From: a virus
IMG/VR virus record: IMGVR_UViG_3300002231_000541
Span: 65,003 to 89,634 of that record
Length of the DNA: 24,632 nt
Reading direction: 5' to 3' (one strand)
The position numbers and the translations under genes are program-made. The notes under the pieces are model-generated. The model saw only the letters and a program-made list of their open reading frames with translations. It did not search any database and was not told where the DNA came from. Shown one piece after another: positions 1,606 to 18,317 of this stretch (the stretch's first letter is position 1; each line of letters begins with the position of its first letter).

Positions 1606-2942
1606 TGTCACATTCTAAGAAAAACACCTATGTGCTTTCTACAATTTATGGAAATGCACTCGATGAGTTCCGCAATGCTGTGGGCAATTACTGGGATCTT
1701 GGGCCCTTTTTCCCCGATTATGGAGATCCTACGGCGAAAAATCCTGCCGCGCTTCTGTCTAAAAAAGTAAATAAAATCAACACCTTCAATATTATTCCGC
1801 GTCAAAAAACAGTCAAAAATCTTAAACAATATCCTTTTTATGAAATCACTCACGATTTTGAAATTTATGCGGACAAGGGTCTTTACAATAATGACACTAA
1901 CTGGGCCAACTATATAATGAAAATTTGTAATTCTCCAAACGTATTTTTGGATTATTCTTTTGATGTGGAGACTCCCATGTCGCCGGCCGAAATGGACGCA
2001 CAGAGTTTCAACCCAGGCGCACTGTACAATAAGGCGAACTTTGTGTACAATTATTATGCTCGCCCCTATGAACTTTTAACCAATAATGATCAAGCTCCGG
2101 AGACTATTCTTCCTAATTTGTATTATTTTTTATCCACCCGCAATAATAAGATGACAGATAAAGCATTCCAAGCGCTAACTGCAGGCGGTATTCTAGAGGA
2201 ATCCCAATTGCGCTCCATGAGGTTGCCTAAAATTGGAACAGCCCACCCGGAATATTTCAATGACTTCGGCCAAGCACAGCGACAAACTTCCCTCACTGCC
2301 CTGGAGAACATTTCTAATGCAGCCACGGATATTATTTTTGATACTGATTGTGATGAGATATTACGTGAAGGCATTAATTTCGCTACTTTATTTCCTATGT
2401 ATGTGGATTTAGAATTCACTACGGACTCTGCCAATGAGATGACGGAGGTACTCAAAGATTCTCACCTAAGCACTTCCTTGATATCTTATTTATCCCTTAT
2501 TCCCCGAAATCCTACCGAGGCTGATCGACAAAGATTTTCGATGCGCACGGAACCAATGCAGTGCTTTTTTGAGAGTATTACTCCTAATGATGACTTTACA
2601 AGTACTGACATAAATGTGGACTCACTAGAGGTGGACGTCAATATTATTGATATTGATAAATGGCTCAAGAAGGTGGCAAAAAATAAGAATTTTGTTCGCT
2701 CATCTGCCATGGTTGTAAAAGATGATACTGAAGATGTCCGCACATCTGCCTTTGAGAAAATGATGTATTTGATAATCTTTTCTGGCAAGTTAAAAACTTT
2801 GGTGGATAAATACAATCGATCTTATTTGGATATTTCCGATGGTGTCAAGGCTTTTTCTGAAACCATATGCTATAAAGTAGAAAAGTTCACCACTAATGGC
2901 GGATCCGAGCCATTACAGACTTTTTTGGCTCCCCAATACTAA
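1605..2942 (+). CDS. Unrecognised structural protein, N-terminal part of a probably split gene
   Basis: This 445-residue frame starts at an ATG sharing one base with the upstream stop. It has no signal peptide or membrane segment and is rich in aromatic and Asn/Asp residues, as phage structural proteins often are. Its last 40 residues (YKVEKF followed by a short loop) look like the first strands of a fibronectin type III-like beta sandwich, and the frame then ends abruptly at 2942. The missing strands appear in the next frame, which overlaps by 47 bases. Removing one T from the T6 run at 2921-2926, or a +1 or -2 shift there, joins the two into a chain of about 1,150 residues. I therefore read this as the N-terminal part of one large tail or baseplate protein. 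The function is unrecognised. Confidence 0.75.
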   Translation: MSHSKKNTYVLSTIYGNALDEFRNAVGNYWDLGPFFPDYGDPTAKNPAALLSKKVNKINTFNIIPRQKTVKNLKQYPFYEITHDFEIYADKGLYNNDTNWANYIMKICNSPNVFLDYSFDVETPMSPAEMDAQSFNPGALYNKANFVYNYYARPYELLTNNDQAPETILPNLYYFLSTRNNKMTDKAFQALTAGGILEESQLRSMRLPKIGTAHPEYFNDFGQAQRQTSLTALENISNAATDIIFDTDCDEILREGINFATLFPMYVDLEFTTDSANEMTEVLKDSHLSTSLISYLSLIPRNPTEADRQRFSMRTEPMQCFFESITPNDDFTSTDINVDSLEVDVNIIDIDKWLKKVAKNKNFVRSSAMVVKDDTEDVRTSAFEKMMYLIIFSGKLKTLVDKYNRSYLDISDGVKAFSETICYKVEKFTTNGGSEPLQTFLAPQY

Positions 2943-5034
2943 CGAGATTGATGCTATTAAGTATGTGGACACCCAAGTCAAATATAATAAAGGGTATAAA
3001 TATAAAGTAAGTGCATACCAGTTCATTGTGGGGTCAGAATATTATTACAAAGACCTCCGATTCCCCGATGAATATGATATGCCGGGATTAATGGAACAAA
3101 CATTGGTCCAAGCCGGCCAAACAACACTTCAGGATTTCTCCGACACCAGCGCCACGCCCAAGACATTGGATGCAGCCGAGAAGCCTATCCCCGTGTTGCA
3201 TCTTTCTGACTACTCTAAGTATAAGGAAATTATGGACCCCTTTGACGAACTAATGGATGACCTTCCGGCCGAAGTGGCAAGCGTCCCTGCTGGCAAAGAT
3301 ATGGCTTTGGACATGGAAGTTTATGACATTATAGAAGAAATGAAGAAATATGATCTTCCAATTCAAACTCTCGAAGTACTAGCGACTACCTTTTCGACAG
3401 GAGAGACTTATCCCTCCTTTTTAAACGATACAAAGAGCCTGTTAGCAAACGCGCGCAACTATTTGACCAATATGAAGTCACGTATTGAGACTTTTGTTAA
3501 AGAATATGAAGATAGCTACCTCCCCTCCATCGCCACAGATGAAAAGAGAGATACGATGCGTACCGTCTCTAAGGAACTCCGCGCCGCACTATCGTGGATT
3601 TATATCATTGATTCATTTTATGGACAATTTGAGGCGTTTGTAGATAAATATAGGGAACTTACCTCCGAAATTGACACCCTTCGTCAAAACCAGCGAGACG
3701 CCAAGGGCCTTAGTTCGTCCTATGGGGAGTCTATAGACAAAGTGGTTTCTACACGCAATGATTTGATCGCTGAAATCTCCGCTGTTGCCACCCAATATCA
3801 TAAATATTATGATGATTTGAATGTGTATTTGTGGAAATACCAAGTCATTGATATTTCGAATCCGGGCTCCATGCAGCCCGCCGTACAAGCGTTTTTCGCG
3901 CAGGCGTCGGAAGAGCAGAACAATACCCAATATGCAGTAGAGACGTTGAGCATAGCCGGAGTTGCAGGTACGGCCCCCCAAACTCCGCAGCCAAGCTCTT
4001 TATATCTTGCAAGCACAGCAGGGCCTACAGTCACAGACTTAGACGCTGACATTATGACTCCAGGCTCAACAGTGTCGACCAATCGAGAAATTACGCAGAA
4101 GCCTTATATTTCGACGGATAGAGACATTTTTAATACCAAATATGCTAATCGACTTTTCGTCGTACCCAAGAAACGTCAGGCGGTAGACGAGAGAAAATTT
4201 TATAAAGCAAACTTACAAGTCTGCATTAGACCATCGGTCAAATTAGCCGAAGTGCCGTTTTTTGAAACAGAGGGTAGCATCATTGATGACCCTCCTGTCT
4301 TTCCCAATGTGGACCTCATTCCATATAGGGGGGTTAAGGATAAAATATTAATCAACTTGAATAGTAGCGTGGGAAGTTATAAAATGATGCCCATCACTTT
4401 TAATCCCAAAGAAGAAAAAATCGTAGAAGATATTCGACAAACTCACCAAATTCCCCCCAACAGTCCGATCACTTTTACCACAGATGACTCAGTTAGCGCC
4501 TTTGAGATATATCGACTAGAGAGTCCGCCAGAGAAGATAGAGGATTTCGCCAACGCTTTGAGAAAATACTTGCCTACCGACGTCAACTCGCAAACTCTAC
4601 AGAAAGCATCCTCAGCCTCGTTTGTAGACGATATCAACGCCAATACTGAATACTATTATACCTTTAGGTCCGTTGACGCTCATGGTAAAATCTCTAACCC
4701 ATCTCCTGTTTACAAGCTGATCATGATGGAGAACGACGCCGCTGTGTACCCCTTGGTAGAGGTCTATCAAATGCGCCCAATTGTCCCTCAACAGCCCACA
4801 AAGACTTGCAAAAAACTAATTAATATTGTGCCACGCTATAGCCAGAGACTCATCAATCTACAAAAATCAAACATAGGAGATGGCAATAGTACGAAAGAAG
4901 TGAAAAATATTGTCCTAGGCCTTGAGGACAAGTCTTTATTTGGGAGAAAATTTAAGATCAGGCTCACTTCGAAGAAGACTGGCAAACAACTTGATTTAAA
5001 CGTGAACTTTAATGTTAAGTTGGATAAAATTTAA
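2896..5034 (+). CDS. Fibronectin-like structural protein, C-terminal part of a probably split gene
   Basis: The frame gives 712 residues from the ATG at 2896, but that ATG has no convincing Shine-Dalgarno sequence and lies inside the upstream gene. The first plausible protein sequence begins only at the shift point (WLPNTNEID, residue 10 on), continuing the interrupted beta sandwich with a typical YKYKVSAYQ strand. Residues about 150-330 look mainly helical and partly coiled-coil. Around 530-612 a second fibronectin-like domain is visible (FEIYRLES, then TEYYYTFRSVDAHGKISNPSP). The extreme C-terminus (about 660-712) is basic and beta-rich. There are no enzyme motifs. Fibronectin-like modules are common in tail, baseplate and decoration proteins, so a tail or baseplate role is likely but inferred. 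The true protein probably starts at 1605. Confidence 0.75.
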   Translation: MADPSHYRLFWLPNTNEIDAIKYVDTQVKYNKGYKYKVSAYQFIVGSEYYYKDLRFPDEYDMPGLMEQTLVQAGQTTLQDFSDTSATPKTLDAAEKPIPVLHLSDYSKYKEIMDPFDELMDDLPAEVASVPAGKDMALDMEVYDIIEEMKKYDLPIQTLEVLATTFSTGETYPSFLNDTKSLLANARNYLTNMKSRIETFVKEYEDSYLPSIATDEKRDTMRTVSKELRAALSWIYIIDSFYGQFEAFVDKYRELTSEIDTLRQNQRDAKGLSSSYGESIDKVVSTRNDLIAEISAVATQYHKYYDDLNVYLWKYQVIDISNPGSMQPAVQAFFAQASEEQNNTQYAVETLSIAGVAGTAPQTPQPSSLYLASTAGPTVTDLDADIMTPGSTVSTNREITQKPYISTDRDIFNTKYANRLFVVPKKRQAVDERKFYKANLQVCIRPSVKLAEVPFFETEGSIIDDPPVFPNVDLIPYRGVKDKILINLNSSVGSYKMMPITFNPKEEKIVEDIRQTHQIPPNSPITFTTDDSVSAFEIYRLESPPEKIEDFANALRKYLPTDVNSQTLQKASSASFVDDINANTEYYYTFRSVDAHGKISNPSPVYKLIMMENDAAVYPLVEVYQMRPIVPQQPTKTCKKLINIVPRYSQRLINLQKSNIGDGNSTKEVKNIVLGLEDKSLFGRKFKIRLTSKKTGKQLDLNVNFNVKLDKI
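2921..2926 (+). other. T6 homopolymer, apparent frameshift site
   Basis: A run of six T sits where the frame beginning at 1605 must move to the frame ending at 5034. With five T the sequence reads straight through (QTF then WLPN) and restores a continuous fibronectin-like domain. A -2 slip would also work and give QTFFWLPN. The run also fits the T TTT TTG pattern of a -1 slippery site, but -1 leads to the wrong frame. A sequencing or assembly indel is the simplest explanation. Confidence 0.6.
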
Positions 5035-5047
5035 AAATAAAAGATTT

Positions 5048-5068
5048 TTCAAAACTAAACGTTTTGGA
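5048..5068 (+). terminator. Weak hairpin, possible terminator
   Basis: The 64-base gap after 5034 contains CAAAAC, a five-base loop TAAAC, then GTTTTG, extendable by a G-T and an A-T pair. The stem is AT-rich and no T-tract follows, so intrinsic termination would be weak at best. Confidence 0.2.
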
Positions 5069-5079
5069 TACTAATTATA
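5067..5079 (+). promoter_or_regulatory. Intergenic motif GATACTAATTATA, copy 1; candidate phage promoter
   Basis: This 13-nt sequence recurs exactly at 16083-16095. Both copies lie in gaps between genes, just upstream of a strong ribosome binding site (here AAAGGAAGG, then ATG at 5099). No convincing -35 box precedes it, which would suit a promoter read by a phage-modified polymerase, as with T4 late promoters. The promoter role is inference from position and repetition. Confidence 0.4.
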
Positions 5080-5098
5080 GAGAAAGGAAGGAAAACTA

Positions 5099-6037
5099 AT
5101 GGCTTTTTTAGATAACAGCGGAGACATCATTTTGGATGCCGTCCTAACAGATACGGGCCGAGCGCGCTTGGCAAAAGGAGATGGCACATTCAGAATTGCT
5201 AAGTTTGCTTTGGGTGACGATGAGATCGATTATGAACTGTATGATAAGACAAATCCTAGCGGAAGTGCGTATTATGATTTACAGATCTTGCAAACACCAG
5301 TGTTAGAAGCCTTCACCAACAACACAGCTACAATGTCTTCTAAATTAATCTCTATTTCCAGAACCAATCTTCTTTACCTTCCCTCGGTTGTACTTAACGA
5401 GGTCTTCGGCGGATCCGGTGACATTAATAGTTCCTCTACCGCTCGAAATCAAACTGCTGGCGTCTTCTATGTGGCAGTAGATGATGATACCAATACGGCT
5501 TTAGCTGGCGTCTCTGGCGTAATCGATGGTGTCGATGGAAGTGGCGGCAACTATGTCCGAGTCGATCAAGGCCTTGACACGGACGAGGTATCGCCCCAGC
5601 GCGAATTAGACTCTGATCTCGTTGAAACTCAATATCTTATTGAAATGGATACTCGCCTAGGCGAAATTCTATCCCGTGATGGCAACAACCTTGCCACCAT
5701 CTCTTTTATTGATGATGATCAGATCGCAAGTTATTATTTATCTTTGGGTACAGATTTAAAATTTGTCAGTGAAATTACTAATAACAAGAAAATCAGCGAC
5801 GGTGCACCAGGTCAGGTAATCAAAGGACCTAGAGGTACTTCGATTCAATTCAAAGTTCAGGCAAGTATTGATTTGAACACTAGCACGTTTTTGTTCACCC
5901 AGTTAGGAGCTACGATGAGCGCTCCGTCTGGCGCAACTGCGGGCACTTACAACTATATCGACTCCAATATCCGAGTCACTGGTGTCACCACCGGCAACAG
6001 AATCGACATTCCAGTCCGGTTTGTCAAGAAGCAATAG
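5099..6037 (+). CDS. Virion structural protein (tail or neck type), conserved N-terminus
   Basis: 312 residues follow a good ribosome binding site (GGAAGGA). The N-terminal 50 residues are distinctive: a short start (MAFLDNSGDIILDAVLTDTG), then ARLAKGDG, then FALGDDEIDY. I recall this pattern from virion proteins of marine myoviruses but cannot verify it here. The rest is rich in Thr, Ser, Gly and Asp with alternating beta pattern. The C-terminal 80 residues (SIQFKVQASIDLNTSTFLF, ending in IPVRFVKKQ) look like an immunoglobulin-like or jelly-roll strand set. There is no signal peptide, membrane segment or enzyme motif. It starts a cluster with the two paralogous virion proteins that follow, and the preceding gap carries a candidate promoter, so it may head its own transcript. 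The exact place in the particle is unknown. Confidence 0.7.
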   Translation: MAFLDNSGDIILDAVLTDTGRARLAKGDGTFRIAKFALGDDEIDYELYDKTNPSGSAYYDLQILQTPVLEAFTNNTATMSSKLISISRTNLLYLPSVVLNEVFGGSGDINSSSTARNQTAGVFYVAVDDDTNTALAGVSGVIDGVDGSGGNYVRVDQGLDTDEVSPQRELDSDLVETQYLIEMDTRLGEILSRDGNNLATISFIDDDQIASYYLSLGTDLKFVSEITNNKKISDGAPGQVIKGPRGTSIQFKVQASIDLNTSTFLFTQLGATMSAPSGATAGTYNYIDSNIRVTGVTTGNRIDIPVRFVKKQ

Positions 6038-6046
6038 GAAAACATC

Positions 6047-7015
6047 ATGGCAACTGTATTTAAGAATTTATTAAGCAACGACGTAGCAACGACACGGACC
6101 CTTCTCAATGAAGCTATCCCCATCACAGGCTCCATCGTTTCCGGAACTTATTCCGATAAAAACATCAAGTATTATTCTCATGGAATGTTCGAAAGCGTAT
6201 ACGATTATCCATATCTTAGCTCTTCGGCGAACCATATTTTCGATATTACTTATGGCTATTCATCAACCTTGTCTTCTTCGGGCAATCCCATGAATGCTAA
6301 GAAATTGAACATCTACAATCAGATGGCACAAGTCCTCGTGGGCTATGGTGTCAATGGAAATGTTAGAAAGTTCGATAGAGATGGCGACCTTACTGGTGGA
6401 GGAAAGATACACAGTTGTGTATTTTTGAACTACTCGCGCCTTCTCGTTAAAGACGAAATCAAAAAGGGAAGCTATACGCTCACTGTAGCGTCAGGGTCTA
6501 CCTTGATTACACTAGGCGACTACGGCGCTCAAAATGACTACAGAGTAAACTCTCCTTCAGGAGAATACGGCGTTCTCTACACATCTTCGGTGGCCTCTCC
6601 AGGTACCGGCGTAGGTCTTATCTATTACCAAGCTGGCGTAGCTGTCATTACCTCTTCGGCGGAGATTTTCCCAAGCGCTTCAAACTTTAATTCAGTATAC
6701 AGCATCACTGGAACTGGCGATTATGTACGAAGTGTATGGAAAAATAACTTACTTAACAACACTACTGAACTGAACAGTACGATTTACTTCTGCCGCGCCA
6801 ACAATAATGAGTTTAACTACTCTTCGAATCCTACCTATTTGTCAGGAAGCAAGATTAGAACCAAAAATGTATCGTCCGATCCATCCGTATCTTATATTAC
6901 TTCCGTGGGTCTTTATTCTGCGGACAACGAGCTTTTGGCAGTTGCCAAAATCAGCGAGCCCCTAAAGAAAGATCAAACAAATGAACTGACTTTGCGTGTA
7001 CGCTTGGATTACTAA
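6047..7015 (+). CDS. Virion structural protein, paralogue of the next gene
   Basis: 322 residues start nine bases after the upstream stop, with AGGAAAA as ribosome binding site. The protein is Ser, Thr, Tyr and Asn rich. About 110-322 matches the downstream protein segment by segment: a basic turn IKKGSYTLTV, a Gly-rich segment followed by GVGLIYYQAGVAVITSS, an Asn-rich NNEFNYSSNPTYL, and a C-terminal module of SVGLYSADNELLAVAKISEP, a short linker and RVRLDY. That C-terminal module is one I associate with virion proteins of T4-like marine phages, from memory only. No catalytic residues are apparent. A tail, baseplate or neck component is most likely. The pair could form a hetero-oligomeric ring or adjacent layers, but nothing in the sequence proves it. 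Confidence 0.7.
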   Translation: MATVFKNLLSNDVATTRTLLNEAIPITGSIVSGTYSDKNIKYYSHGMFESVYDYPYLSSSANHIFDITYGYSSTLSSSGNPMNAKKLNIYNQMAQVLVGYGVNGNVRKFDRDGDLTGGGKIHSCVFLNYSRLLVKDEIKKGSYTLTVASGSTLITLGDYGAQNDYRVNSPSGEYGVLYTSSVASPGTGVGLIYYQAGVAVITSSAEIFPSASNFNSVYSITGTGDYVRSVWKNNLLNNTTELNSTIYFCRANNNEFNYSSNPTYLSGSKIRTKNVSSDPSVSYITSVGLYSADNELLAVAKISEPLKKDQTNELTLRVRLDY

Positions 7016-7023
7016 AAAATGTC

Positions 7024-8190
7024 ATGCCATTTAAGAAATTTGACCAAAGCGACATTATTCATAATACGATAAAAGCACACCCTCGTGTTTCTTTAGCGAT
7101 ATATGATAGCAAAATTTACAAACAAGGTGAAACCCAAGTTTCGGGAGCCTTTGTAGCTAGTATTCCTAATGCACCTCCGGGGTTTATATCGCTGTATGAG
7201 TTAAATGTGGACCGCACTCCGGCTGATACGGGAATGATATACCCTTTTATCACCAAAAATGGCACCCTGTCTAACTTTAAAACTATTTCTACTTCTAAAT
7301 TTAACAGTGATTTTGCCTACGGTGCTAAAATCACATCTTCCTATCCATTGACGGCCTCTATTTCACGAGAATATTTCCAACTAAACCAATCGCGCCCCCA
7401 TGTAACAGCCCTTAAGAATACTCTCAATTTTTATAAAAACATCAGCCAGCACTATGCCTATAGCTCCAGTTTGGGCAATAAGTCTTCGCAACCCCTAAAC
7501 TTGACCTCTATCCCTTCTATCTTTTTTGGATCTTCAATTAAGAAAGGTTCTGTAGATTTAAAGTTCTACATTTCAGGCACTTTGATTGGACAACTTCAGG
7601 ACAAAAACTATGATGGTGAACTCATCCAAACAGGACCCTCTGGAAGCACCGGATCGGGGTCTGTAGCGGGTGTTGTTTTATATAACGAAGGTTTTATGGT
7701 ATTAACTGGTTCGTGGCCTCTAGAGACGTCTGTAGCGCGGAATTATTTAAATGATATCACCAACCAACAAACATCTTCATGGCTATATTATGGAGTCGGC
7801 GCCCAAGATGGGATACCCTCTGGAGTCATCCCTTCGTCAAGTTATGAGATGTATTTTGAAGGAACCCAGCGCATCCCCACTGTCACGTTATTAGCACACG
7901 CGGATAAAGGCGAGATGAACCACTCTAACAATCCCACATATATTAGATATGGTCAAAATCTGTCGCCCAATTCTTCCTCTATCTCTTTTATTGAGTCAGA
8001 ACAAGAAATCAAAAATACCGTGGAGTCCCCTTATGTTGCTCCTACGGCATCGTTTGAGAAAATTACTTATATTTCGAAAATTGGAATATATGACGAGGAT
8101 AGAAATCTTATAGGAATTGCCTCAATCGCCAAACCTGTCAAGAAAACAGAGCAACAGCAATATACTTTTAAGTTAAAAATGGATTTTTAA
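7024..8190 (+). CDS. Virion structural protein, paralogue of the previous gene
   Basis: 388 residues. The chosen ATG at 7024 lies eight bases after the previous stop. There is no clear Shine-Dalgarno sequence, so coupled re-initiation is likely. Residues about 165-388 are homologous to the preceding protein: IKKGSVDLKFYISG, VAGVVLYNEGFMVLTGS, EMNHSNNPTYIRYG and KIGIYDEDRNLIGIASIAKP, ending KLKMDF. The first 160 residues are longer and different (MPFKKFDQSDIIHN and following), containing a segment of short beta strands and a Pro-rich turn near 50. The stop codon is followed immediately by the ATG of the resolvase gene. A tandem gene duplication followed by N-terminal divergence explains the pair. 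The role is probably tail or baseplate, as inferred for its paralogue. Confidence 0.7.
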   Translation: MPFKKFDQSDIIHNTIKAHPRVSLAIYDSKIYKQGETQVSGAFVASIPNAPPGFISLYELNVDRTPADTGMIYPFITKNGTLSNFKTISTSKFNSDFAYGAKITSSYPLTASISREYFQLNQSRPHVTALKNTLNFYKNISQHYAYSSSLGNKSSQPLNLTSIPSIFFGSSIKKGSVDLKFYISGTLIGQLQDKNYDGELIQTGPSGSTGSGSVAGVVLYNEGFMVLTGSWPLETSVARNYLNDITNQQTSSWLYYGVGAQDGIPSGVIPSSSYEMYFEGTQRIPTVTLLAHADKGEMNHSNNPTYIRYGQNLSPNSSSISFIESEQEIKNTVESPYVAPTASFEKITYISKIGIYDEDRNLIGIASIAKPVKKTEQQQYTFKLKMDF

Positions 8191-8709
8191 ATGATATTAG
8201 GATTGGATATAAGCACAAGCATCGTTGGAGTGTGTGTTCTACAGGATAACAAGGTAGTTCATGCTGGATACATCGATCTTCGAAAAGTGGGAGATTTTTT
8301 TGCAAAAGCGGAAAAAGTAGATGAATATTTGCAAGCTCTGGAATTTCCCATTGAGCACATCTTCATTGAGCAGGCCTTGATGTTCTTCCGCCGAGGAGGT
8401 TCAACTGCAAAAACAATGGCTGTCCTTCAACGTTTCAATGGAGTGGTTTCGTGGTTATCGCATAAGCAGTTTGACATCCACCCAGAGTACGTTACTCCTA
8501 TTGGTGCCCGATCTAAATGTGGAATTAAAGTGCCCAAAGGCAAAAAAGCCAAAGATGTGGTAATGGAGCACTTTATAAAAAGCAAAGAGTTTGAAATTGA
8601 TTATACTCGGTATGGAAATGTTCAGAAATATTGTTATGATATGGCTGATGCAATTGTCGTTGCCAGAGCTGGGCACTATTTATTACAGGAGAATCACGAA
8701 AATGTCTGA
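8191..8709 (+). CDS. RuvC-like Holliday junction resolvase
   Basis: 172 residues with an RNase H-like fold signature. The first strand is MILGLDIST with Asp6, the second acidic residue is Glu60 in FIEQAL, and the third site is YDMADAIVVA with Asp150 and Asp153. The spacing fits RuvC, whose four acidic residues bind two metals to cut Holliday junctions symmetrically. Length is close to the usual 155-175. A Gly/Lys-rich stretch (113-121) may contact DNA. In phages of this type such enzymes resolve recombination intermediates and debranch DNA before packaging. The ATG directly abuts the stop of the virion gene, and the stop overlaps the next start by eight bases, so this gene sits in a mixed structural and replication operon. 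Family assignment is solid, and branched-DNA substrate is inferred from the family. Confidence 0.88.
   Translation: MILGLDISTSIVGVCVLQDNKVVHAGYIDLRKVGDFFAKAEKVDEYLQALEFPIEHIFIEQALMFFRRGGSTAKTMAVLQRFNGVVSWLSHKQFDIHPEYVTPIGARSKCGIKVPKGKKAKDVVMEHFIKSKEFEIDYTRYGNVQKYCYDMADAIVVARAGHYLLQENHENV
8687..8693 (+). promoter_or_regulatory. Ribosome binding site AGGAGAA fixing the start at 8702
   Basis: AGGAGAA lies eight bases before the ATG at 8702. The longer reading from 8591 has no such signal and overlaps the catalytic end of the resolvase, so 8702 is the real start. Confidence 0.75.
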
Positions 8710-9271
8710 AATGAAGTTGATCATGGAAGGGTGGAGGTCTCATGTGGAGGACCAAAAATTTGAAATGATGCTAGGAACATTATTGAACAGCCACGGCCAA
8801 TTAAACGAAAGTGTGGCTGATGATATCAAAGAAAAGGTACGGCAAGTAGCTAGAGAATATGGCAAAAAAGCCACCACCATAGCCATGGCCGCAATGCTGG
8901 CCACCAATGCAATCGCTCCTGGCATAGCCGCTGCTTCGCCTCCGGCCGTAGCCTCTGACGCTCCCAGGATAGCGCAGCAAGTCGATAATGATGCCGCTGA
9001 AGAAGAAACAAAAAAACCAGCTGCCCAAGCCCTAAAGAAAATTTTTCAAGATATTGGAGACTCCTTTAAACAAGATGGGGAAATAGGAAAGCTGTTTTCG
9101 AAAAAAGACAAGAACCAAGACGAGGTGTCAGATTCGGATAGTAAAGATCTTATAATACAACACATAAAGGCAAAAGCCGAAAGTGGTATCGACCTAAGTC
9201 CGGACGAAGTGCAATTATTGGACCTATATAATCAGCACGGACCCAATTGGGACTCTCAAATTGAAAAATAA
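8702..9271 (+). CDS. Unrecognised protein with possible capsid-targeting N-terminus and Ala-rich hydrophobic segment
   Basis: 189 residues from the start set by the strong upstream ribosome binding site. The start overlaps the resolvase stop by eight bases. The N-terminus MSEMKLIMEGWRSHVEDQ is a short amphipathic helix with I-M-E at 7-9, followed by a second candidate L-N-E at 34-36. Both fit the (I/L)-X-E rule of T4 gp21-type prohead proteases. Residues 56-80 are Ala- and Met-rich and hydrophobic, preceded by basic residues and followed by small residues, resembling an export signal or membrane segment placed internally. The rest (98-189) is charged and probably helical. A plausible reading is an internal head protein that is trimmed and possibly delivered to the host with the DNA, but that is inference. 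No enzyme motif is seen. Confidence 0.7.
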   Translation: MSEMKLIMEGWRSHVEDQKFEMMLGTLLNSHGQLNESVADDIKEKVRQVAREYGKKATTIAMAAMLATNAIAPGIAAASPPAVASDAPRIAQQVDNDAAEEETKKPAAQALKKIFQDIGDSFKQDGEIGKLFSKKDKNQDEVSDSDSKDLIIQHIKAKAESGIDLSPDEVQLLDLYNQHGPNWDSQIEK

Positions 9272-9274
9272 TCC

Positions 9275-9303
9275 TTGACAGGCGCCCTCAACTATGCTAT
9301 ATT
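9275..9303 (+). promoter_or_regulatory. Near-consensus sigma-70 promoter for the primase gene
   Basis: TTGACA (9275-9280) is a perfect -35 box. After exactly 17 bases comes TATATT (9298-9303), which matches TATAAT at five of six positions. The expected transcription start, about seven bases downstream, falls on or next to the primase ATG at 9310. It lies in a 38-base gap. Its strength suggests host polymerase reads the primase and SbcDC genes early, apart from the surrounding structural genes. Confidence 0.7.
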
Positions 9304-9309
9304 AATAAT

Positions 9310-10233
9310 ATGCAAGAGAAGTTGAATATTCTAGTTGGTATTCTCGGGTCGTGTTACGCCTCCGGAGATGAGCATCTTTTTAGATGCCCCTATTGTAAAC
9401 ACCATAAGCGCAAACTTTCGGTTAATGTCGAAAAGGGCGTATATAAGTGCTGGATCTGTGATGCTCGTGGTAAAAAACTATCACGAATTGTACGCCGCTT
9501 CGGGTCCTTCAATGAACAGGAGGAGTGGAAACTTGTTTCGGGAGAAGTCACCAATTTAAATGACTTTGACGACCTCTTTAAAGAAGAAATCATTGTTGCC
9601 AAGGAACAATCTATTCCTCTGCCCGACCACTTCCACACTCTTTGCAACTCTTCAAAAGCGCGCCAACCTATGGCATATTTAAAATCACGAGGCCTTGACG
9701 AGAGAGATGTTCTGAAGTGGAAAATGGGCTTTTGTAGTGATGGGCCCTATAAAGATCGCATTATTATACCTTCTTTCAACTTGGGGGGTAATTTAAATTA
9801 TTTTATAGCTCGGACATTTGTCGATGATTGGCGCAGGTATATAAACCCATCAGCCAGCCGAGATATTATTTTTAACGAGCTTTATATCGATTTTGATGAA
9901 GAAGTGACTTTGGTAGAGGGGGTTTTTGATGCGCTTAAAACCAACAATGCTGTCCCGCTTTTAGGATCCACTCTACGTGAAGGGTCGAGGCTTTTTACTA
10001 AAATAGTCAAGAATGATACAGCTGTCCTCTTAGCACTGGATCCAGATGCTACATATAAATCTACGAATATTAAAAACTTATTATTGAAACACGGAATAGA
10101 AGTGAGAGAAGTTAAATACGAAGATCATCGTGATCTTGGTGAGATGACGAAAGATGAAGTTACAGCAATGAGCACAAAGGCGCCGTTCGTGCGACAATAT
10201 GATGAATTATTGTCCGCCATCGGCTCTTTATAG
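9310..10233 (+). CDS. DnaG-type DNA primase (zinc finger plus TOPRIM)
   Basis: 307 residues. The N-terminal zinc finger has Cys26, Cys29, Cys47 and Cys50, with His31/His32 nearby, as in CHC2 primase fingers that read the template. A KDRIIIPSF strand (148-156) matches the DnaG RNA polymerase core. The TOPRIM part shows Glu203 in LVEGVFDA, Asp207, and the metal-binding pair Asp244 and Asp246 in ALDPDA. The protein makes RNA primers for lagging-strand synthesis. It is short for a bacterial DnaG (about 580) because no helicase-binding C-terminal domain is present, so a separate helicase elsewhere is expected. There is no Shine-Dalgarno sequence, and the strong promoter would start transcription at about the ATG, implying a leaderless message. 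Its stop overlaps the ribosome binding site of the SbcDC gene. Confidence 0.9.
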   Translation: MQEKLNILVGILGSCYASGDEHLFRCPYCKHHKRKLSVNVEKGVYKCWICDARGKKLSRIVRRFGSFNEQEEWKLVSGEVTNLNDFDDLFKEEIIVAKEQSIPLPDHFHTLCNSSKARQPMAYLKSRGLDERDVLKWKMGFCSDGPYKDRIIIPSFNLGGNLNYFIARTFVDDWRRYINPSASRDIIFNELYIDFDEEVTLVEGVFDALKTNNAVPLLGSTLREGSRLFTKIVKNDTAVLLALDPDATYKSTNIKNLLLKHGIEVREVKYEDHRDLGEMTKDEVTAMSTKAPFVRQYDELLSAIGSL

Positions 10234-10237
10234 GAGA
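10232..10237 (+). promoter_or_regulatory. Ribosome binding site AGGAGA for a TTG start
   Basis: AGGAGA overlaps the primase stop and lies seven bases before the TTG at 10245. The encoded MKFAHIADTH is the expected beginning of an SbcD/Mre11 nuclease, so the unusual start codon is well supported. Confidence 0.8.
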
Positions 10238-10244
10238 CACTAAC

Positions 10245-13200
10245 TTGAAGTTTGCACATATAGCAGATACTCATATTAAAAACTTGAAATATCATTATGA
10301 GTATAAAATAATTTTTGATAAAATGTATCAAAAACTACGAGAAGAAAAGGTAGATTACATCATTCATTGTGGAGACATAGCTCACACTAAGACGCAGATT
10401 TCCCCCGAATTTGTAGAAATGTGTTCGGCTTTTTTTAGTAACCTAGCTGACATTGCGCCCACCTATGTAATCTTAGGAAATCACGACGGCAACCTTAGAA
10501 ACTCTAATCGCCAAGATGCCCTCACTCCCATTGCTGAAGCCCTTAACCACTCCAACTTGCATTTGCTTAAAAATTCGGGAGAAACCCCTATTGGTTCTGG
10601 GTTCACTCTGAATGTCTTATCTGTATTCGATGAAGATAACTGGGTACAGCCATCAGACACCTCGCAGATAAACATTGCGTTATATCATGGTTCCATCTCT
10701 GGCGTTGTGACCGACACAGGATGGGTAATGGACCATGGAGAACACCCTATTAATATTTTTGACGGCCATGACTATGCCTTTTTGGGAGATATTCATAAAA
10801 CCAATCAAAGCCTGGACGTCGCTGGCCGAATCCGCTATTGCGGATCTACTGTGCAACAGAATCATGGTGAAACAAATGATAAGGGATTTTTAATCTGGGA
10901 CATTCAAGATAAAGACGACTTTACCTGCATTCATCACATGATTTCCAACCCTCGCCCGTTCGTTACAGTGAACTTAACACCGAAGGGAAAAATGCCAAGA
11001 GGCATCCAGGTACCGAGCCACGCTCGTTTAAGGCTCGTCTCTAACAATAATCTGCCCATTGGAGTTATGCGCAAGGCCATGGATGTCGCCCAGCGGCGAT
11101 TTAAGCCCGAAACAGTGACGTTTTTAAACCGCGCAGCAGGTAAGCGAGGAAGTGTAGAAGGTTCCACAGAGGGTCTGCAGACCGAAGATTTGCGTAATAT
11201 TGAAATTCAAGAAAAGCTTATTCGTGAATATTTGACAGATTATGAAGTAGAAGAAGATTTAATGACGCGCGTCCTCAACTTGAATTTGCGCTATAATAAA
11301 ATTGCTGAAGAAAAAGAAGAAATATCCCGTAACGTCAATTGGCGCCTGCGCTCGCTGGAGTGGGACAATCTGTTCAACTATGGAAAAGGGAATAGTATCA
11401 ATTTCGATAACCTAGAAGGAATCGTGGGTATCTTTGGTAAAAACTTCTCCGGTAAATCCAGCATTATCGATTCTCTTTTATACACACTTTATAATTCCAC
11501 ATCGAAAAATGATCGAAAGAACTTAAACATCATTAATCAAAACCTGCCGGCCGGTTCTGGCAGGGCGAAAATATCGGTGGGCGATGTAGATTATTACGTT
11601 GAGATAGATTCTGAAAAGTATATTAGAAAGCTTAAGGGAGAGGTGACGACGGAAGCCAAGACAAATGTTGAATTCAACTGTTACGACCCGCTCGTAGATG
11701 CCTTGGAGAGCAAGAATGGCCTAACGCGTAACGAAACGGACAAGAATATCCGTAAAGTATTTGGTACTCTTGATGATTTTTTGTATTCATCTATGGCAAG
11801 TCAGATGGATTCTCTCACTTTTATTAAGGAAGGTTCCACCAAGAGAAAAGAAATCTTGGCTAAATTTTTAGATTTAGAGTTTTTCGAGCGAAAATTCAAG
11901 CTTGCTAAAGAAGAGGCTGCCGACACTAAAGGAGCCCTGCGTAAACTCCAGGACAAGAATTTTGATGAAGATATGGAGGAAGCCTCAAGTCAACTCGCAA
12001 ATGCTAATAGTGATTTATTAAAAAAGAAAATGGCTTGTGAATCCATGAAAGCAAAATTAGCAAAGTGCGAATCCCAGGTTCAAGAATTGGGAGAAAAGAT
12101 ACGATCTATTCCTGCTGAATTAATTGATGTTATGAAAGTTCGCAATGAGCTGGATGACAAGAAGGGCCAAGTCATAAAGGTGTCGGATGAAAGCTCGGAA
12201 ATGGCCGCATTGAGAGACAAAGATCGTGAGTCATATCAGAAGATCTTAGAATTTGAAGAAAATTACGATGAAAAGTCTTTGTTTGAAAAACAAGAGGTCG
12301 CAAATGAATTACTTGAAAGTCTTATTTCCCTGGAGACATCTTTAGGAGAAGAAAACAAAGAACTTGAAAGAAATCAGAAAAAGATAAAAATGCTAGAAGA
12401 TCACGAATATGATCCAGATTGTCATTATTGTTGTGAAAACTCCTTTGTTAAGGATGCCTATGTCTCTAAGACCAAGTTACCAAAAAATGAACGGGAAGTG
12501 TCCCGCCTCGCTACGATGATAGATGACTTAAATGACGAAATTAAAGAAATAGACCCTCAAGAGGTAGAGTCAGATATCTACAAATATAATACTTTAATAA
12601 ACAAGAAAAATGCTTTATCTAACCAAATCACAAATTACGACCTCAAGATAGAAAAAAATGACTCCATCATCAAGTCTCTCATGGTCGAGATAGGGGCTAT
12701 AGAGGCTAAGTTGTCTGAATATGAACTCAACAAGGAGGTTATTGACAATCTTGAGGGCCTCAATAAGAATATGAAAAGCTTAAAATTTCAATCCAAGACC
12801 ATTCAGAATAACTTTGAGGAGTGCAATGGTTCTGTTTTAGATTTGTACAAAAAAGTGGGCTCGCTAGAACAAAAGGTGATAAACCTAGAGAATCAACGCC
12901 AGGAACTGCAGGATTTGCAAGAGGAGTTCTCCGCCGCCGACCTTTATATGCGCTGCATGCACCCCAACGGTATTGCTTATGATGTAATTAAGCGCAAGCT
13001 TCCTGTCATCAATGAGGAGATCGCCAAGATTTTGGCAAATATTGTAGATTTCGAGGTATTTTTTGAAGACGATGGTAAGCGATTAGATATTTTTATCAAA
13101 CACCCGCTTTATGGCCCTAGGCCTCTGGAAATGGGCTCTGGTGCCGAAAAGACTATTGCAGCCATGGCCATCCGGCTTTCTCTGCTAAGTGTGTCCAGTC

Positions 13201-13406
13201 TTCCAAAATCAGATATTTTCATTCTTGACGAGCCGGGTACCGCCCTCGATGAAGAAAACATGCAGGGATTTATTGATATTCTTGATTTAATTAAGTCTTA
13301 TTTTAAGACCGTGCTTCTGATTTCCCACTTGGATAGCCTAAAGGACTGCGTAGACATGCAAATCACAATTGATAAGAAAAATGGATACGCTTCAGTTAGT
13401 CTCTAA
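10245..13406 (+). CDS. SbcD-SbcC (Mre11-Rad50, T4 gp47-gp46-like) fusion nuclease-ATPase
   Basis: 1053 residues from a TTG start. Residues 1-330 form an Mre11/SbcD metallophosphoesterase with all main motifs: Asp8 and His10 (IADTHI), Asp44 (HCGDIAH), Asn79, His80 and Asp81 (LGNHD), His148 (YHGS) and His184 (LGDIHK). From about 365 an SbcC/Rad50 ATPase follows: Walker A (GKNFSGKSS, about 398-406), a long coiled coil (about 530-910) bearing a CHYC zinc hook (Cys726, Cys729), a signature segment MGSGAEK (about 961), Walker B ILDEPGTALDE (about 990-1000), and a switch histidine in LISHLD. Such complexes trim broken or hairpinned ends and start recombination. Bacteria and T4 encode the two subunits as separate genes. 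Here they are one chain with no internal stop, fixing 1:1 stoichiometry. The signature lacks the usual LSGGE wording, as in divergent phage members. Confidence 0.95.
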   Translation: MKFAHIADTHIKNLKYHYEYKIIFDKMYQKLREEKVDYIIHCGDIAHTKTQISPEFVEMCSAFFSNLADIAPTYVILGNHDGNLRNSNRQDALTPIAEALNHSNLHLLKNSGETPIGSGFTLNVLSVFDEDNWVQPSDTSQINIALYHGSISGVVTDTGWVMDHGEHPINIFDGHDYAFLGDIHKTNQSLDVAGRIRYCGSTVQQNHGETNDKGFLIWDIQDKDDFTCIHHMISNPRPFVTVNLTPKGKMPRGIQVPSHARLRLVSNNNLPIGVMRKAMDVAQRRFKPETVTFLNRAAGKRGSVEGSTEGLQTEDLRNIEIQEKLIREYLTDYEVEEDLMTRVLNLNLRYNKIAEEKEEISRNVNWRLRSLEWDNLFNYGKGNSINFDNLEGIVGIFGKNFSGKSSIIDSLLYTLYNSTSKNDRKNLNIINQNLPAGSGRAKISVGDVDYYVEIDSEKYIRKLKGEVTTEAKTNVEFNCYDPLVDALESKNGLTRNETDKNIRKVFGTLDDFLYSSMASQMDSLTFIKEGSTKRKEILAKFLDLEFFERKFKLAKEEAADTKGALRKLQDKNFDEDMEEASSQLANANSDLLKKKMACESMKAKLAKCESQVQELGEKIRSIPAELIDVMKVRNELDDKKGQVIKVSDESSEMAALRDKDRESYQKILEFEENYDEKSLFEKQEVANELLESLISLETSLGEENKELERNQKKIKMLEDHEYDPDCHYCCENSFVKDAYVSKTKLPKNEREVSRLATMIDDLNDEIKEIDPQEVESDIYKYNTLINKKNALSNQITNYDLKIEKNDSIIKSLMVEIGAIEAKLSEYELNKEVIDNLEGLNKNMKSLKFQSKTIQNNFEECNGSVLDLYKKVGSLEQKVINLENQRQELQDLQEEFSAADLYMRCMHPNGIAYDVIKRKLPVINEEIAKILANIVDFEVFFEDDGKRLDIFIKHPLYGPRPLEMGSGAEKTIAAMAIRLSLLSVSSLPKSDIFILDEPGTALDEENMQGFIDILDLIKSYFKTVLLISHLDSLKDCVDMQITIDKKNGYASVSL

Positions 13407-13422
13407 CTACTTAAGGTAAAAT

Positions 13423-13441
13423 GGATCCCCTAGGGGTATCC
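13423..13441 (+). repeat. Imperfect inverted repeat in the gap after SbcDC
   Basis: GGATCCCC, TA, GGGGTATCC is a near palindrome interrupted by one unpaired base. The loop is too small for a good hairpin and no T-tract follows, so a protein-binding site is as likely as a terminator. It lies in a 56-base gap before the fibre-type gene. Confidence 0.3.
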
Positions 13442-13462
13442 AACCAAGGGAGATAAATTATT

Positions 13463-14644
13463 ATGGGATATTTGACAGAAAATTCACTTTATACGGCAGG
13501 TACAGACGCTTCAGTCATTAGCGGATCAGCACCAATTAGCGGATCTGCGGGGTCTGGGTCATATGTGACAGGTAGTGAGCCAGCTTCGGGCGACTCTGGT
13601 CTCATGAAACTTCCGGGACAAACGGGATTCTTTATTCACAGTGCTGTGCCATATGGACTTTGGTTACGAGAATACAGCACAGGTGCTTGGACTCAAGTCC
13701 AACTCTTTGACGAATCGAACCTGATTGAGAGCACGACCTACGAATGGGGAACTAAAGACTGCCTATATATCCAGTCTTTCTCTGCTGATCAAAAGGTCTA
13801 TGTCTATCCTCGTACTGGTCCTCTCTATATTGATGGTGATACTTCGGATGGCGTAAATGCCCACGATACTGTGGTTCTAGATGGCTTACAACAAGCTGTG
13901 ACTGCTGGCTCTCCTATCTCTAATGGGATTAATAACGGATCTCTGGCTGTCATTTCTACCGACCCTGCCGAGACGGCATTTCGTGTTTCAACCTCGACAG
14001 ACGACAACTTTTTTGTAATCGATGAATCGGGTAGTTATGATGGCCGCGCGCGTGTCATGGTGCAAACCACCAATGACTTTGACGCATCAGATGTTCCATA
14101 TTTGGGATATGCCCGAGGCCTCGTTCATATCGAACGAGAGGCAGATGATACCCAATGCGCTTTAAGTATTTGGTCTCATGGGGGAACGCATAGTGATAAT
14201 TCGGGCGTCAACCTTGTTTCATGGGCCTCAAACGATAACGTTGGCTCTTATCTCAACTTTTTGTCGAACGATGGCACATTCCCCGCCGGCAACGTACCCG
14301 ACACCAAGATGCTTGGAAAAATTAGTTTCGGCGGTTATACCAATAACCAGCACCGAACAGGGGCTCATATTACAAGTCGCGCCACTCAAGCATGGCATTA
14401 TGGCAACAAGCTGGGAACCAAGATTGTACTGTCCACCACTCCCAATGACACCAATGTGGCAGCTGATCACTTAACAGTATCATCTGCTGGTATTGTTCTT
14501 CATGCTCCGGCATCTGCCATTGACTCGGCAGAGTTGAATAATTCATCTATGTGTATGAGTCTAGACGAAGCCACTAACAAGCTTACTATTACTGTCAAAT
14601 ACTCGGACGGCACAGTTAAAACTGGCCTCGTAGATCTATCATAA
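13463..14644 (+). CDS. Fibre or adhesin-like virion protein, paralogous N-terminal domain
   Basis: 393 residues. AGGGAG precedes the ATG by about ten bases. The first 45 residues are Ser/Gly/Ala rich with a short internal duplication (ISGSAP, ISGSAG). Residues about 52-155 form a beta-rich domain homologous to the N-terminus of the next gene product: GFFIHSAVPYGLWLRE, a Tyr/Trp strand, YIQSFSADQKVYVYPRTGPL, then DTVVLDG. Beyond this the proteins differ. This one continues with a Gly/Asn/Ser-rich region (160-360) that looks like short beta strands of a fibre shaft or receptor-binding head, and ends in LTITVKYSDGTVKTGLVDLS. No lectin, hydrolase or chaperone motif is recognised. The probable role is a short tail fibre, spike or head decoration. 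The shared domain would be the virion anchor, by inference. Confidence 0.65.
   Translation: MGYLTENSLYTAGTDASVISGSAPISGSAGSGSYVTGSEPASGDSGLMKLPGQTGFFIHSAVPYGLWLREYSTGAWTQVQLFDESNLIESTTYEWGTKDCLYIQSFSADQKVYVYPRTGPLYIDGDTSDGVNAHDTVVLDGLQQAVTAGSPISNGINNGSLAVISTDPAETAFRVSTSTDDNFFVIDESGSYDGRARVMVQTTNDFDASDVPYLGYARGLVHIEREADDTQCALSIWSHGGTHSDNSGVNLVSWASNDNVGSYLNFLSNDGTFPAGNVPDTKMLGKISFGGYTNNQHRTGAHITSRATQAWHYGNKLGTKIVLSTTPNDTNVAADHLTVSSAGIVLHAPASAIDSAELNNSSMCMSLDEATNKLTITVKYSDGTVKTGLVDLS
13517..13545 (+). repeat. Short tandem duplication ATTAGCGGATC, 18-base period
   Basis: The 11-mer ATTAGCGGATC occurs at 13517-13527 and 13535-13545, encoding the repeated Ile-Ser-Gly-Ser peptides near the fibre protein N-terminus. 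This is a low-complexity linker duplication, with no sign of a mobile element. Confidence 0.6.
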
Positions 14645-14655
14645 AGGAGACATGG

Positions 14656-16083
14656 ATGGGACAATTAACTTTACAAAATCAACACTTTATCGAGGGCGTA
14701 AATACGGACTTTATTGGCCAATCTGCTCCCGTAGCCCAAGTCGGCGAAGTGAGAGACCAGACTCACAGTGGTTTTTTTATCTATGCCACAGCAGACTATA
14801 CGTTGTGGTTCAAGACCGCAGCCGGCTCCTGGATTCAACATCAGCAGGTTTCATCTATTGACCCCACATCGCGAACATTTAGCTGGTCAGATAATATCGC
14901 CCTTTATTTGCAGGCTACCGATGTATCCCAGGTGTTTTATATCACCGCCAGAGACGGCGCCCTGTTAATTGATAATACTCCGGCGGATGGATCTGATGCG
15001 GTAGACACGTTGGTGTTAAGCACAGCAACTAGTTTACGGGTTTTTGGCGCGGGAAGTGTTATAACCCAGACTGAAACATCTCATGTCATCTCTGACGCAT
15101 CGCCTGTCACTATCGATACTCCAAACGAAGGGACTATTCAAGTAGTCGAAGACACCTCGGACTATGCAAATTCTTTATCTTCTAAGCTCGCCGCCTATTA
15201 CAACTTCGACGATGAAACAGCTAATGATTCCACGATTGGCGAAAATCATGGTACAGTCTCTGCTGGCTGCGTATATGTTAATGGCAAAACTGGCCTGGGG
15301 AAAGCACTTCACCAGACTACCGGAGATGCTCACGTATCTTTGAACAACCCTGATTTGATGAATCTAGGTCCGGATTTCACTGTCACAGCCTGGGTATATA
15401 TTCCGTCGACACAGGCCGAGACTGACCCAGTGGACAATCCTTATAATGACATCTCTATTTTCTGTAATACTGATTCTTTTGGAGACTGGACTTATGTAAC
15501 TGGATTTAACTTAGTCGTACCCAAACCGGGCTATGCAGGCGGCTGGGGGATGCCATCTAACTGTGTAGCTTTCTACTCTGGCGTGGGTCAGGGAAATGGA
15601 ATTTACTCTTGGGCATGGTATGCCGTAGCTTCACCACAAAACTCTTTTCCATATGACGAGTGGGTACATGTCGCTCTGACATTTTCAGGTGCGGATCAAG
15701 CCAGTTGGGGCGGTAATGAAAAACTATTCATTAACGGACAACTCCAGGCTCTGACATCCAGAACTAATCAGCCCGCCCAGAACGCCATGGAATGGACCGC
15801 TGATCCTCTTAATGTAAACCTAGGCGCTGCCCTCCGCACGAGTCACCCTTTGCCCATGGCTGGCTCTGGTGAATTGAAATATGATGAGATCGCTATCTGG
15901 AAGAGGGAGCTATCTGAAGCCGAAATCACATCGCTCTATAACAGTGGCACCGGCCAACAATTGGATACCACCTATGTCAATTCCGAAGTAGTCCGTGAAG
16001 ACTTTACTATAACAACGGCAGTAACAGTAGAGGCTCCAGCGGGTACCGATGATACAAATATTACAGTTAGAATCACAAAATAG
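14656..16083 (+). CDS. Fibre or adhesin-like protein with LamG-like lectin domain
   Basis: 475 residues. The ATG at 14656 has AAAGGAGA six bases upstream. A second ATG four bases earlier opens only a short frame. Residues about 38-140 are homologous to the previous protein (GFFIYATADYTLWFK, ALYLQATDVSQVFYITARDG, DTLVLS). After a Thr/Ser linker, about 175-445 is a LamG/concanavalin-like jelly roll: LAAYYNFDDE, a GKAL turn, FTVTAWVYIP, EWVHVALTFSG, KLFINGQL, and KYDEIAIWKRELSEAEI, the standard closing motif of that family. The last 30 residues form a small beta tail. Such lectin-type domains bind glycans, so this is a credible receptor-binding or adhesion protein on the particle. The different C-termini on a common N-terminal domain suggest modular swapping of host-recognition parts. 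Confidence 0.8.
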   Translation: MGQLTLQNQHFIEGVNTDFIGQSAPVAQVGEVRDQTHSGFFIYATADYTLWFKTAAGSWIQHQQVSSIDPTSRTFSWSDNIALYLQATDVSQVFYITARDGALLIDNTPADGSDAVDTLVLSTATSLRVFGAGSVITQTETSHVISDASPVTIDTPNEGTIQVVEDTSDYANSLSSKLAAYYNFDDETANDSTIGENHGTVSAGCVYVNGKTGLGKALHQTTGDAHVSLNNPDLMNLGPDFTVTAWVYIPSTQAETDPVDNPYNDISIFCNTDSFGDWTYVTGFNLVVPKPGYAGGWGMPSNCVAFYSGVGQGNGIYSWAWYAVASPQNSFPYDEWVHVALTFSGADQASWGGNEKLFINGQLQALTSRTNQPAQNAMEWTADPLNVNLGAALRTSHPLPMAGSGELKYDEIAIWKRELSEAEITSLYNSGTGQQLDTTYVNSEVVREDFTITTAVTVEAPAGTDDTNITVRITK

Positions 16084-16095
16084 ATACTAATTATA
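16083..16095 (+). promoter_or_regulatory. Intergenic motif GATACTAATTATA, copy 2; candidate phage promoter
   Basis: Exact copy of the motif at 5067-5079. It begins at the stop codon of the LamG protein and is followed by CTATA and the ribosome binding site GGGAGG. A TATACT resembling a -10 box overlaps its end, but no -35 box is found at the right distance. It would drive the membrane-protein cluster and possibly the head genes. Confidence 0.4.
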
Positions 16096-16111
16096 CTATA
16101 CGGGAGGACTC

Positions 16112-16312
16112 ATGACAATGACAGAAATGGCAAAAGGCGCAGTTGATAAAGCTTTGGAGAAGATGGTTTCGCGTAAACTACTTGTGTGGGCCACTGCTAC
16201 AGTTTTATTATTCACTTCTAATTTGGAAAGTGAGCATTGGCTTTATTTAAGTGCTTTATATATCGGAGGCCAGTCAGTGATTGACGCCATCGTGAAACTA
16301 AAAAGTGCATAA
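16112..16312 (+). CDS. Small two-helix membrane protein, holin candidate
   Basis: 66 residues after GGGAGG. The first ATG is only four bases from that signal, so the second Met (16118) is a possible start. After a charged N-terminal helix come two hydrophobic stretches, about 23-40 (KLLVWATATVLLFT) and 43-60 (HWLYLSALYIGG and on), with a short linker and a Lys-containing C-terminus. Size and topology match class II holins, and the gene begins a run of membrane and coiled-coil proteins. Holins are too diverse for sequence alone to decide. It could also be another small inner-membrane protein. No endolysin gene is visible in the window. Confidence 0.55.
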   Translation: MTMTEMAKGAVDKALEKMVSRKLLVWATATVLLFTSNLESEHWLYLSALYIGGQSVIDAIVKLKSA

Positions 16313-16322
16313 GTAAACAAGC

Positions 16323-16328
16323 GAGGAT
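16323..16328 (+). promoter_or_regulatory. Ribosome binding site GAGGAT for a TTG start
   Basis: GAGGAT lies three to five bases before the TTG at 16332, whereas the first in-frame ATG (16347) is about 20 bases away. This favours the TTG start. Confidence 0.5.
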
Positions 16329-16331
16329 ATT

Positions 16332-16733
16332 TTGATTAACATCAATATGGGCGAAATGTTTAAATCGCTCGGATCATTTATTGCAAAAAATTGGCAGATT
16401 TTAGCGCTATTGCTAATGGTGGTGCTCTTTTTTATGACAAAAAATGACTATGCAGCTCTCAAAAAATCGATGGATGTAATGAGTACATCTTATGAAGAAC
16501 AACTATCTTTGTTGCAAGAACTTCACGAAGAAGAGCTTTTGCGCAGAGATGAGGCTATTGCTTCCTATGAAGCTTTCATAGAAGAGTTGGAGGAGCAACA
16601 TAGGCTCGATTTAGAAGAAATTGCCAAAGCTCGTGAGCAAGAAATAGAAGACAATATTCAAGATTTCGAAGAAGCACCCAGTGAACTAGCTGAAGAAATA
16701 GAAGATTTATTTGGATTAGACTATGTGGAATAA
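16332..16733 (+). CDS. Membrane-anchored coiled-coil protein, possible i-spanin-like
   Basis: 133 residues from a probable TTG start. A single hydrophobic helix at about 17-36 (NWQILALLLMVVLFFM) is followed by a highly acidic coiled coil (about 42-110, rich in Glu, Leu, Gln), with no signal peptidase site. An N-terminal anchor and a periplasmic helix is the layout of Rz-type i-spanins, which bridge to the outer membrane at lysis in Gram-negative hosts. It overlaps the next gene by 11 bases, as spanin gene pairs often do. However, the partner lacks a clear lipobox, so the spanin label is a guess from topology. It could also be a tail-associated or superinfection membrane protein. Confidence 0.5.
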   Translation: MININMGEMFKSLGSFIAKNWQILALLLMVVLFFMTKNDYAALKKSMDVMSTSYEEQLSLLQELHEEELLRRDEAIASYEAFIEELEEQHRLDLEEIAKAREQEIEDNIQDFEEAPSELAEEIEDLFGLDYVE

Positions 16734-17151
16734 ACTCGCACTGATGTTAATATTGTTCTCCCCTTTGGCCGAGGCCTCGGAAGGAAAATTTACCTTCTTA
16801 CAGCAAGAGCAATGTGCACCGTTTTCAGGAACCTTATTTGACCCTACGGCTACTGCAAAAATTATTGCTCATCACAAGTTTCTTAAAGAAGAATTCGATT
16901 TAAAGCTGGCATATCAGGTATCGATACTAGAAGCTCAACATGATCTGGAAATAGAACAATTTAAGATTTCGCTTGACATTCAAGAGAAAAAATGTAATAA
17001 TATGATAGAAATCAAGGATAGGGAAATAGAAGGTTTAAACAAGATTATTGCCAAAAAGCCCGGAAGCAACGCTTTGCTATGGGGCATCCTTGGTGGCTTT
17101 GTAGCTGGGGCTGCAGCAACAGTGGGCATCGTCTATGCGGTGAACAAATGA
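16723..17151 (+). CDS. Exported coiled-coil protein with C-terminal membrane helix
   Basis: 142 residues. It has a short signal peptide (KLALMLILFSPLAEA, cleavage expected near residue 18) and then a mature N-terminus with Cys31 in QCAPFSGTLFDPTA. An Ala/Lys/Glu-rich coiled coil (about 45-112) follows, then a C-terminal glycine-zipper-like transmembrane helix (118-139, WGILGGFVAGAAATVGIVYA). The topology, with exported N-terminus, periplasmic helix and C-terminal inner-membrane anchor, is that of a unimolecular spanin. A lipoprotein box is absent, so this would be an atypical one. The Cys-Ala-Pro-Phe segment looks conserved in my memory of marine phages, unverified. It overlaps the upstream coiled-coil gene by 11 bases and the next gene by four (ATGA). 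A lysis role is inferred only. Confidence 0.55.
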   Translation: MWNKLALMLILFSPLAEASEGKFTFLQQEQCAPFSGTLFDPTATAKIIAHHKFLKEEFDLKLAYQVSILEAQHDLEIEQFKISLDIQEKKCNNMIEIKDREIEGLNKIIAKKPGSNALLWGILGGFVAGAAATVGIVYAVNK

Positions 17152-18141: not shown

Positions 18142-18317
18142 TTAAAGGAAAAAATAAAATGGCTACAACATTAGAAATCATTCAAGGAATTAATCAAGCG
18201 GCAGCAAATGCCTATGACGGCGCCCACGATCAGAGATTCGTCACCGGAGACGCTAAAGAAATCGGCCTTAGTCGAGAAGAGGGCTGTCCCATTACTGATT
18301 CACGAGTCGCCGATGGC

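Follow-up and report, generated by a model that had tools for sequence, protein, structure and literature searches.

The primase gene of a marine T4-related myophage is preceded by a host-type promoter that, on our reading, would begin transcription on the first base of the primase AUG and give a leaderless primase–SbcCD mRNA, most likely early in infection; we put the probability of this reading at roughly 0.8. The DNA analysed (the window, 24,632 nucleotides) comprises bases 65003–89634 of a 119,951-base virus record, and the virus is placed among the T4-related myophages by its T4-type portal (PF07230, E = 2.4e-74), terminase (PF03237) and prohead protease (PF03420). Promoter anatomy, spacing to the start codon, absence of a Shine–Dalgarno (SD) sequence, conservation within a clade and recurrence of the class at other genes can all be read from the sequences.

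Anatomy of the primase promoter

The features of the locus are as follows.

8191–8709, + strand: RuvC-like resolvase (phrog_159), upstream of the promoter
8675–8683, + strand: ACTATTTAT ahead of the cargo gene, a candidate late-promoter motif; intergenic-enriched and strand-biased (208:21)
8702–9271, + strand: variable cargo gene (MSEMKLIMEGW...) between ruvC and the promoter; no known family
9265–9274, + strand: AAAATAATCC block, UP-element-like, abutting the −35; 1.75 bits per column (13 clade sequences)
9275–9280, + strand: −35 hexamer TTGACA (CTTGAC with 9274), from the scan; 2.00 bits per column, invariant in 13/13 distinct clade sequences
9281–9297, + strand: 17-nt spacer ending in TGC; constant in length, variable in sequence (0.72 bits) except for the terminal TG
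9298–9303, + strand: −10 hexamer TATATT, from the scan; 1.70 bits per column (13 clade sequences)
9304–9309, + strand: discriminator AATAAT, 6 nt long; position −1 is a pyrimidine in 13/13 sequences
9310, + strand: predicted transcription start, on the A of the primase AUG and seven bases past the −10; A here and a pyrimidine at −1 in 13/13 sequences
9310–10233, + strand: DnaG-type phage primase, 307 aa, with CHC2 zinc finger and catalytic core (phrog_47, E = 3.5e-39)
10245–13406, + strand: SbcD–SbcC fusion protein (T4 gp47/gp46-like), TTG start (phrog_77, phrog_100)

The zinc finger and catalytic core assign the primase to the DnaG-type phage family; PF01807 (CHC2) and PF08275 (DNAG_N) match it just under their curated cut-offs. 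The SbcD–SbcC gene that follows has a normal SD, AGGAG at 10232–10236. Judged by its −35, spacer and −10, the site before the primase has the sequence of a primary-sigma (sigma-70 type) promoter, with a match of 11/12 over both hexamers at a spacer of 17. A TG at 9295–9296, within the end of the spacer, makes an extended −10, and the AAAATAATCC block overlaps the TAA stop (9269–9271) of the upstream gene. The sequence-only reading had placed TTGACA, 17 bases and TATATT directly before the primase ATG; this is borne out at 9275–9309, and the extended −10 and the 6-nt discriminator can be added to it. Its statement that it saw no other strong sigma-70 site in the window holds for the intergenic sense strand of positions 1–20000, where the scan found the primase promoter alone, but fails when all sites there are counted, as three further 11/12 matches occur: two intragenic (1891+ and 16973+) and one antisense near a gene start (16118−). 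Elsewhere in the record 12/12 promoters lie at 25453, 26735 and 38529, each with an SD-bearing leader.

Given a predicted start on the first base of the primase gene, the message should lack both a leader and a ribosome-binding site. Such a leaderless mRNA is predicted from the 6-nt discriminator and the pyrimidine/A initiator seen in 13 sequences, and the absence of an SD claimed earlier was confirmed by pairing energies: +1.9 kcal/mol before the primase ATG versus a genome median of −5.5 (longest start) or −6.2 (best start), with a range of −2.2 to +1.9 at the primase starts of the clade. An upstream in-frame primase start was rejected, since no ATG, GTG or TTG was found between the upstream stop and 9310. 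The 5′ end of the primase in the window is moderately structured (−7.0 kcal/mol over 40 nt), which would not be ideal for a leaderless mRNA.

Conservation in the primase clade and beyond

Sixteen primases from IMG/VR relatives, 58–68% identical, form a clade with tree support of 100/100, and 14 of them are preceded by TTGACA-N17-TATAnT-N6-ATG. One exception (L008) keeps the −35 and the spacing with a decayed −10; in the other (L004, with L005 identical in primase) the promoter is displaced. Information content was calculated from 13 distinct clade sequences, among them the window and L008 with its decayed −10, and falls from 1.75 bits per column in the AAAATAATCC block to 0.36 in the 15 bases before it. 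In the 14 members the spacer sequence and the upstream DNA vary while the hexamers, the 17-nt length and the 6-nt gap are kept, and the gap stays constant while the upstream stop moves between −24 and −52 relative to the primase ATG. The start codon is ATG in all members of the clade; their N-termini (M.EKL) align from the first residue, with no alternative start codon conserved. On this comparison a chance origin of the promoter can be rejected, because none of the 13 distinct sequences departs from TTGACA and the −10-to-ATG distance does not change; the decoy patterns described below likewise speak against chance.

The order ruvC, variable DNA, primase, SbcCD is found in nearly all of 52 relatives, and the stretch separating ruvC from the promoter can be absent or as long as >1 kb; the promoter travels with the primase while this DNA varies. 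The cargo gene at 8702–9271, which has its own ACTATTTAT motif and SD, has a partial match in L009 only among the relatives. Cargo genes after ruvC (window 8702–9271; L004 1874–2461 and 2544–3809) share the N-terminus MSxM(K/R)L(I/L)ME.W and then diverge, and no known family was found for them.

In L004 and L005 a cassette of ~1.5 kb (2480–4004 in both) stands just after the −35, with TTGACAAA kept, and parts the −35 from the ATG. At its end lies an ORF of 46 aa that has a promoter of its own (TTGACT-N17-TATAAT) and a GGAG, and the stop of this ORF overlaps the primase ATG as ATGA. The near-identical primases of L002 and L003 have no cassette and retain the leaderless promoter. L004 and L005 are a natural experiment in which the leaderless promoter was lost and the primase was placed behind a new SD-led ORF. 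The cassette also holds a late-type motif of its own and a gene starting MSEMRLLMEKW.

Outside the clade a promoter lies 6–7 nt from the primase ATG in L020 and L049 and 8 nt from it in L029, L038, L041 and L051, a gap that would permit a leader of 1–2 nt. With two further clades carrying the promoter at 6–7 and 8 nt, the arrangement either had multiple origins or is ancient and frequently lost. Across 50 distinct relatives the primase start largely falls into three types (promoter at 6–8 nt, stop–start coupling, or SD); L026, L028, L030 and L032 fit none of these, both promoter and SD were scored in L038 and L051, and a 10/12 promoter touches the ATG in L017. The sequence-only reading had asked whether relatives show a conserved ribosome-binding site and a different start. 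Members of the clade have the same start, no such site and the 17-nt spacer, which speaks for that reading, whereas the more distant, promoter-less relatives do mostly have an SD or stop–start coupling, at about the same start.

The same spacing at other genes

Promoters matching at least 10/12 were surveyed in 13 related genomes for the distance from the −10 to the start codon, with 60 shuffled patterns as decoys. A distance of exactly 6 nt was found 21 times against a decoy mean of 1.3 (one of the 60 decoys reached 17), with one hit each at 5 and 7 nt. The distances have a second peak, a hump at 16–31 nt with strong SDs, and the median SD energy is +0.4 in the 6-nt group versus −7.1 in the 16–31 nt group. 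This bimodality, with a 6-nt spike lacking SDs, suggests that leaderless genes are a recurrent minor class in these phages.

The 21 hits are not all independent, as five are primase orthologues; the others include small proteins of the MKVGDLV type, the MKMTIVID family and, by reading of the sequences, a gene that appears RNA-methyltransferase-like. The genes were called by simple scripting, and among the 21 some hits are doubtful, either as internal starts (G000 104721, G008 182907) or through an SD before a second ATG shortly downstream (G013 186034, G008 188571). The MKMTIVID family (~91 aa), traced separately, has TTGACA-N17-TATAwT-N6-ATG at 6 of 16 loci; in L186, L187 and L200 tandem TTGACA boxes occur every 10–15 bp before the leaderless promoter of this gene. 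A small-gene array at 182–195 kb of G008 contains several near-identical TTGACA-N17-TATATTATA promoters, with leaderless and SD-led genes mixed.

A candidate late motif in the surrounding cluster

The most enriched intergenic 7-mer of these phages is CTATTTA. In the 13 related genomes ACTATTTA, ACTAATTA and ACTACTTA are strongly biased to the sense strand (208:21, 117:12 and 48:3 respectively), and as these motifs precede structural genes they are a candidate late-promoter class. A strand-biased intergenic ACT(A/T/C)(A/T)TTAT is seen ~20–35 nt before the SD and ATG of structural genes at window positions 5070, 8675, 13406 and 16086. It differs from the T4 late motif TATAAATA, and phmmer with T4 gp55, run to support the late-promoter idea, gave no match in the 13 genomes, several of which are incomplete. 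The primase, with its host-type promoter, thus lies within a cluster of candidate late type marked by this motif and by SD-bearing leaders.

Mechanism and alternative explanations

In the proposed mechanism, host primary-sigma RNA polymerase would bind the UP-like A-tract, the TTGACA and the extended −10 and begin the transcript with the A of the primase's AUG; ribosomes, probably 70S, would then initiate on the 5′-terminal AUG of the leaderless primase–SbcCD mRNA. Primase and recombination nuclease would most likely be expressed early and without a phage factor, as the neighbouring structural genes use a different, candidate late motif with SD leaders. The exact 5′ end, the timing early in infection, initiation by 70S ribosomes and a benefit for regulation are inferences. 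Conserved promoter, spacing and ATG, together with the missing SD and the recurrence of the 6-nt distance, support the earlier proposal of a host-type promoter with an apparently leaderless primase.

The promoter could be real and the primase nonetheless made mainly from upstream read-through, by SD-independent or reinitiating ribosomes, with the promoter-to-ATG distance incidental. The upstream stop lies just 38 nt before the ATG, the feature scan shows no terminator-like site between 9271 and 9310, and stop–start coupling is used in other relatives; we nevertheless consider this unlikely, as the 6-nt gap holds while the upstream stop shifts, the hexamers are conserved and the spacer is not, and the 6-nt spike is present at unrelated genes too. 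It is similarly improbable that transcription starts 1–3 nt away from the A (for example at 9308 or 9311), leaving a tiny leader or a 5′ end inside the AUG and perhaps a different true start codon. Start positions vary by 1–2 nt at many promoters and a related clade has the 8-nt gap (L029, L038, L041); against this, the best initiator (pyrimidine at −1, A at +1) falls at 9310 in every one of the 13 sequences, and the alignment from residue 1 offers no other conserved start codon. The idea that the conserved block is mainly a phage-regulator binding site that merely resembles a sigma-70 promoter draws on conservation reaching 10 bases upstream of the −35, and we give it very little credence: the exact spacer of 17, the extended −10 TG and the pyrimidine–A initiator are promoter features, and CTTGACA, second among the enriched intergenic 7-mers of these phages, precedes many SD-led genes at a normal leader distance.

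Returning to transcription from the primase AUG, its retention in a phage clade and its recurrence at a few other genes suggest a real mode of expression for selected genes and not coincidence. That primase is thereby made first is plausible. More tentatively, the AUG might be used when an early transcript of its own begins with it, and poorly when it is internal and SD-less in a late read-through mRNA, which would tie primase synthesis to the early transcript; we think such an early-only translation gate possible, though doubtful, and compactness is a simpler idea for the leaderless start. Were the gate true, a replication gene could be housed in a late operon and yet not be made late.

Comparison with known leaderless systems

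Transcription of lambda cI from PRM uses a host sigma-70 promoter and starts at the A of the AUG, with no SD, as predicted for the primase here. Lambda cI, which has been named as a leaderless mRNA (PMC9031893), is the repressor of a temperate phage, whereas the present case is a replication gene among structural genes of a T4-related phage. The leaderless promoters PL1, PR2 and PL2 predicted in Cluster O mycobacteriophages (PMC4351075) concern an actinobacterial host in which leaderless genes are common and few close relatives, and were not described for primase. Thermus phage phiYS40, a lytic phage, likewise has a leaderless class alongside leadered genes; its leaderless mRNAs are middle and late and have been tied to IF2/IF3 changes (reviewed in PMC3594737), whereas the class described here is probably early, as it carries a host-type promoter.

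In bacteria, 171 leaderless genes are reported in Sinorhizobium meliloti and 375 in Caulobacter (PMC3616915, PMC4117421). The 375 Caulobacter mRNAs match leadered ones in translation during normal growth (PMC4117421), so that no stress explanation is needed. Leaderless AUG starts are routine in S. meliloti, there at bacterial genes, and its sigma-70 consensus, CTTGAC-N17-CTATAT (PMC2873474), fits window positions 9274–9302 exactly; this resemblance is only a lead to the phage host, and it is not decisive since TTGACA/TATAAT promoters also occur in the record. A search of genome contigs for related primase loci as a host clue gave just two distant ones (44–46% identity), one in a MAG of a gammaproteobacterium and one in a MAG of Flavobacteriales, neither with this promoter before the primase.

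In the literature searched, with partial coverage, neither a leaderless primase nor a leaderless class was found described for T4-related phages. Phage leaderless genes are usually reported genome by genome. Such genes being already known, the primase is a well-supported addition with better comparative support than usual. An uncultured T4-related clade keeps a predicted leaderless primase start despite deep divergence (~60% protein identity) and has predicted leaderless starts at several other genes too, with strong SDs at most others. The combination of an SD-less ATG and a promoter 6 nt before it offers a rule for finding such genes in metagenomes, and the clade would be a testable case of a phage choosing its mode of translation start gene by gene.
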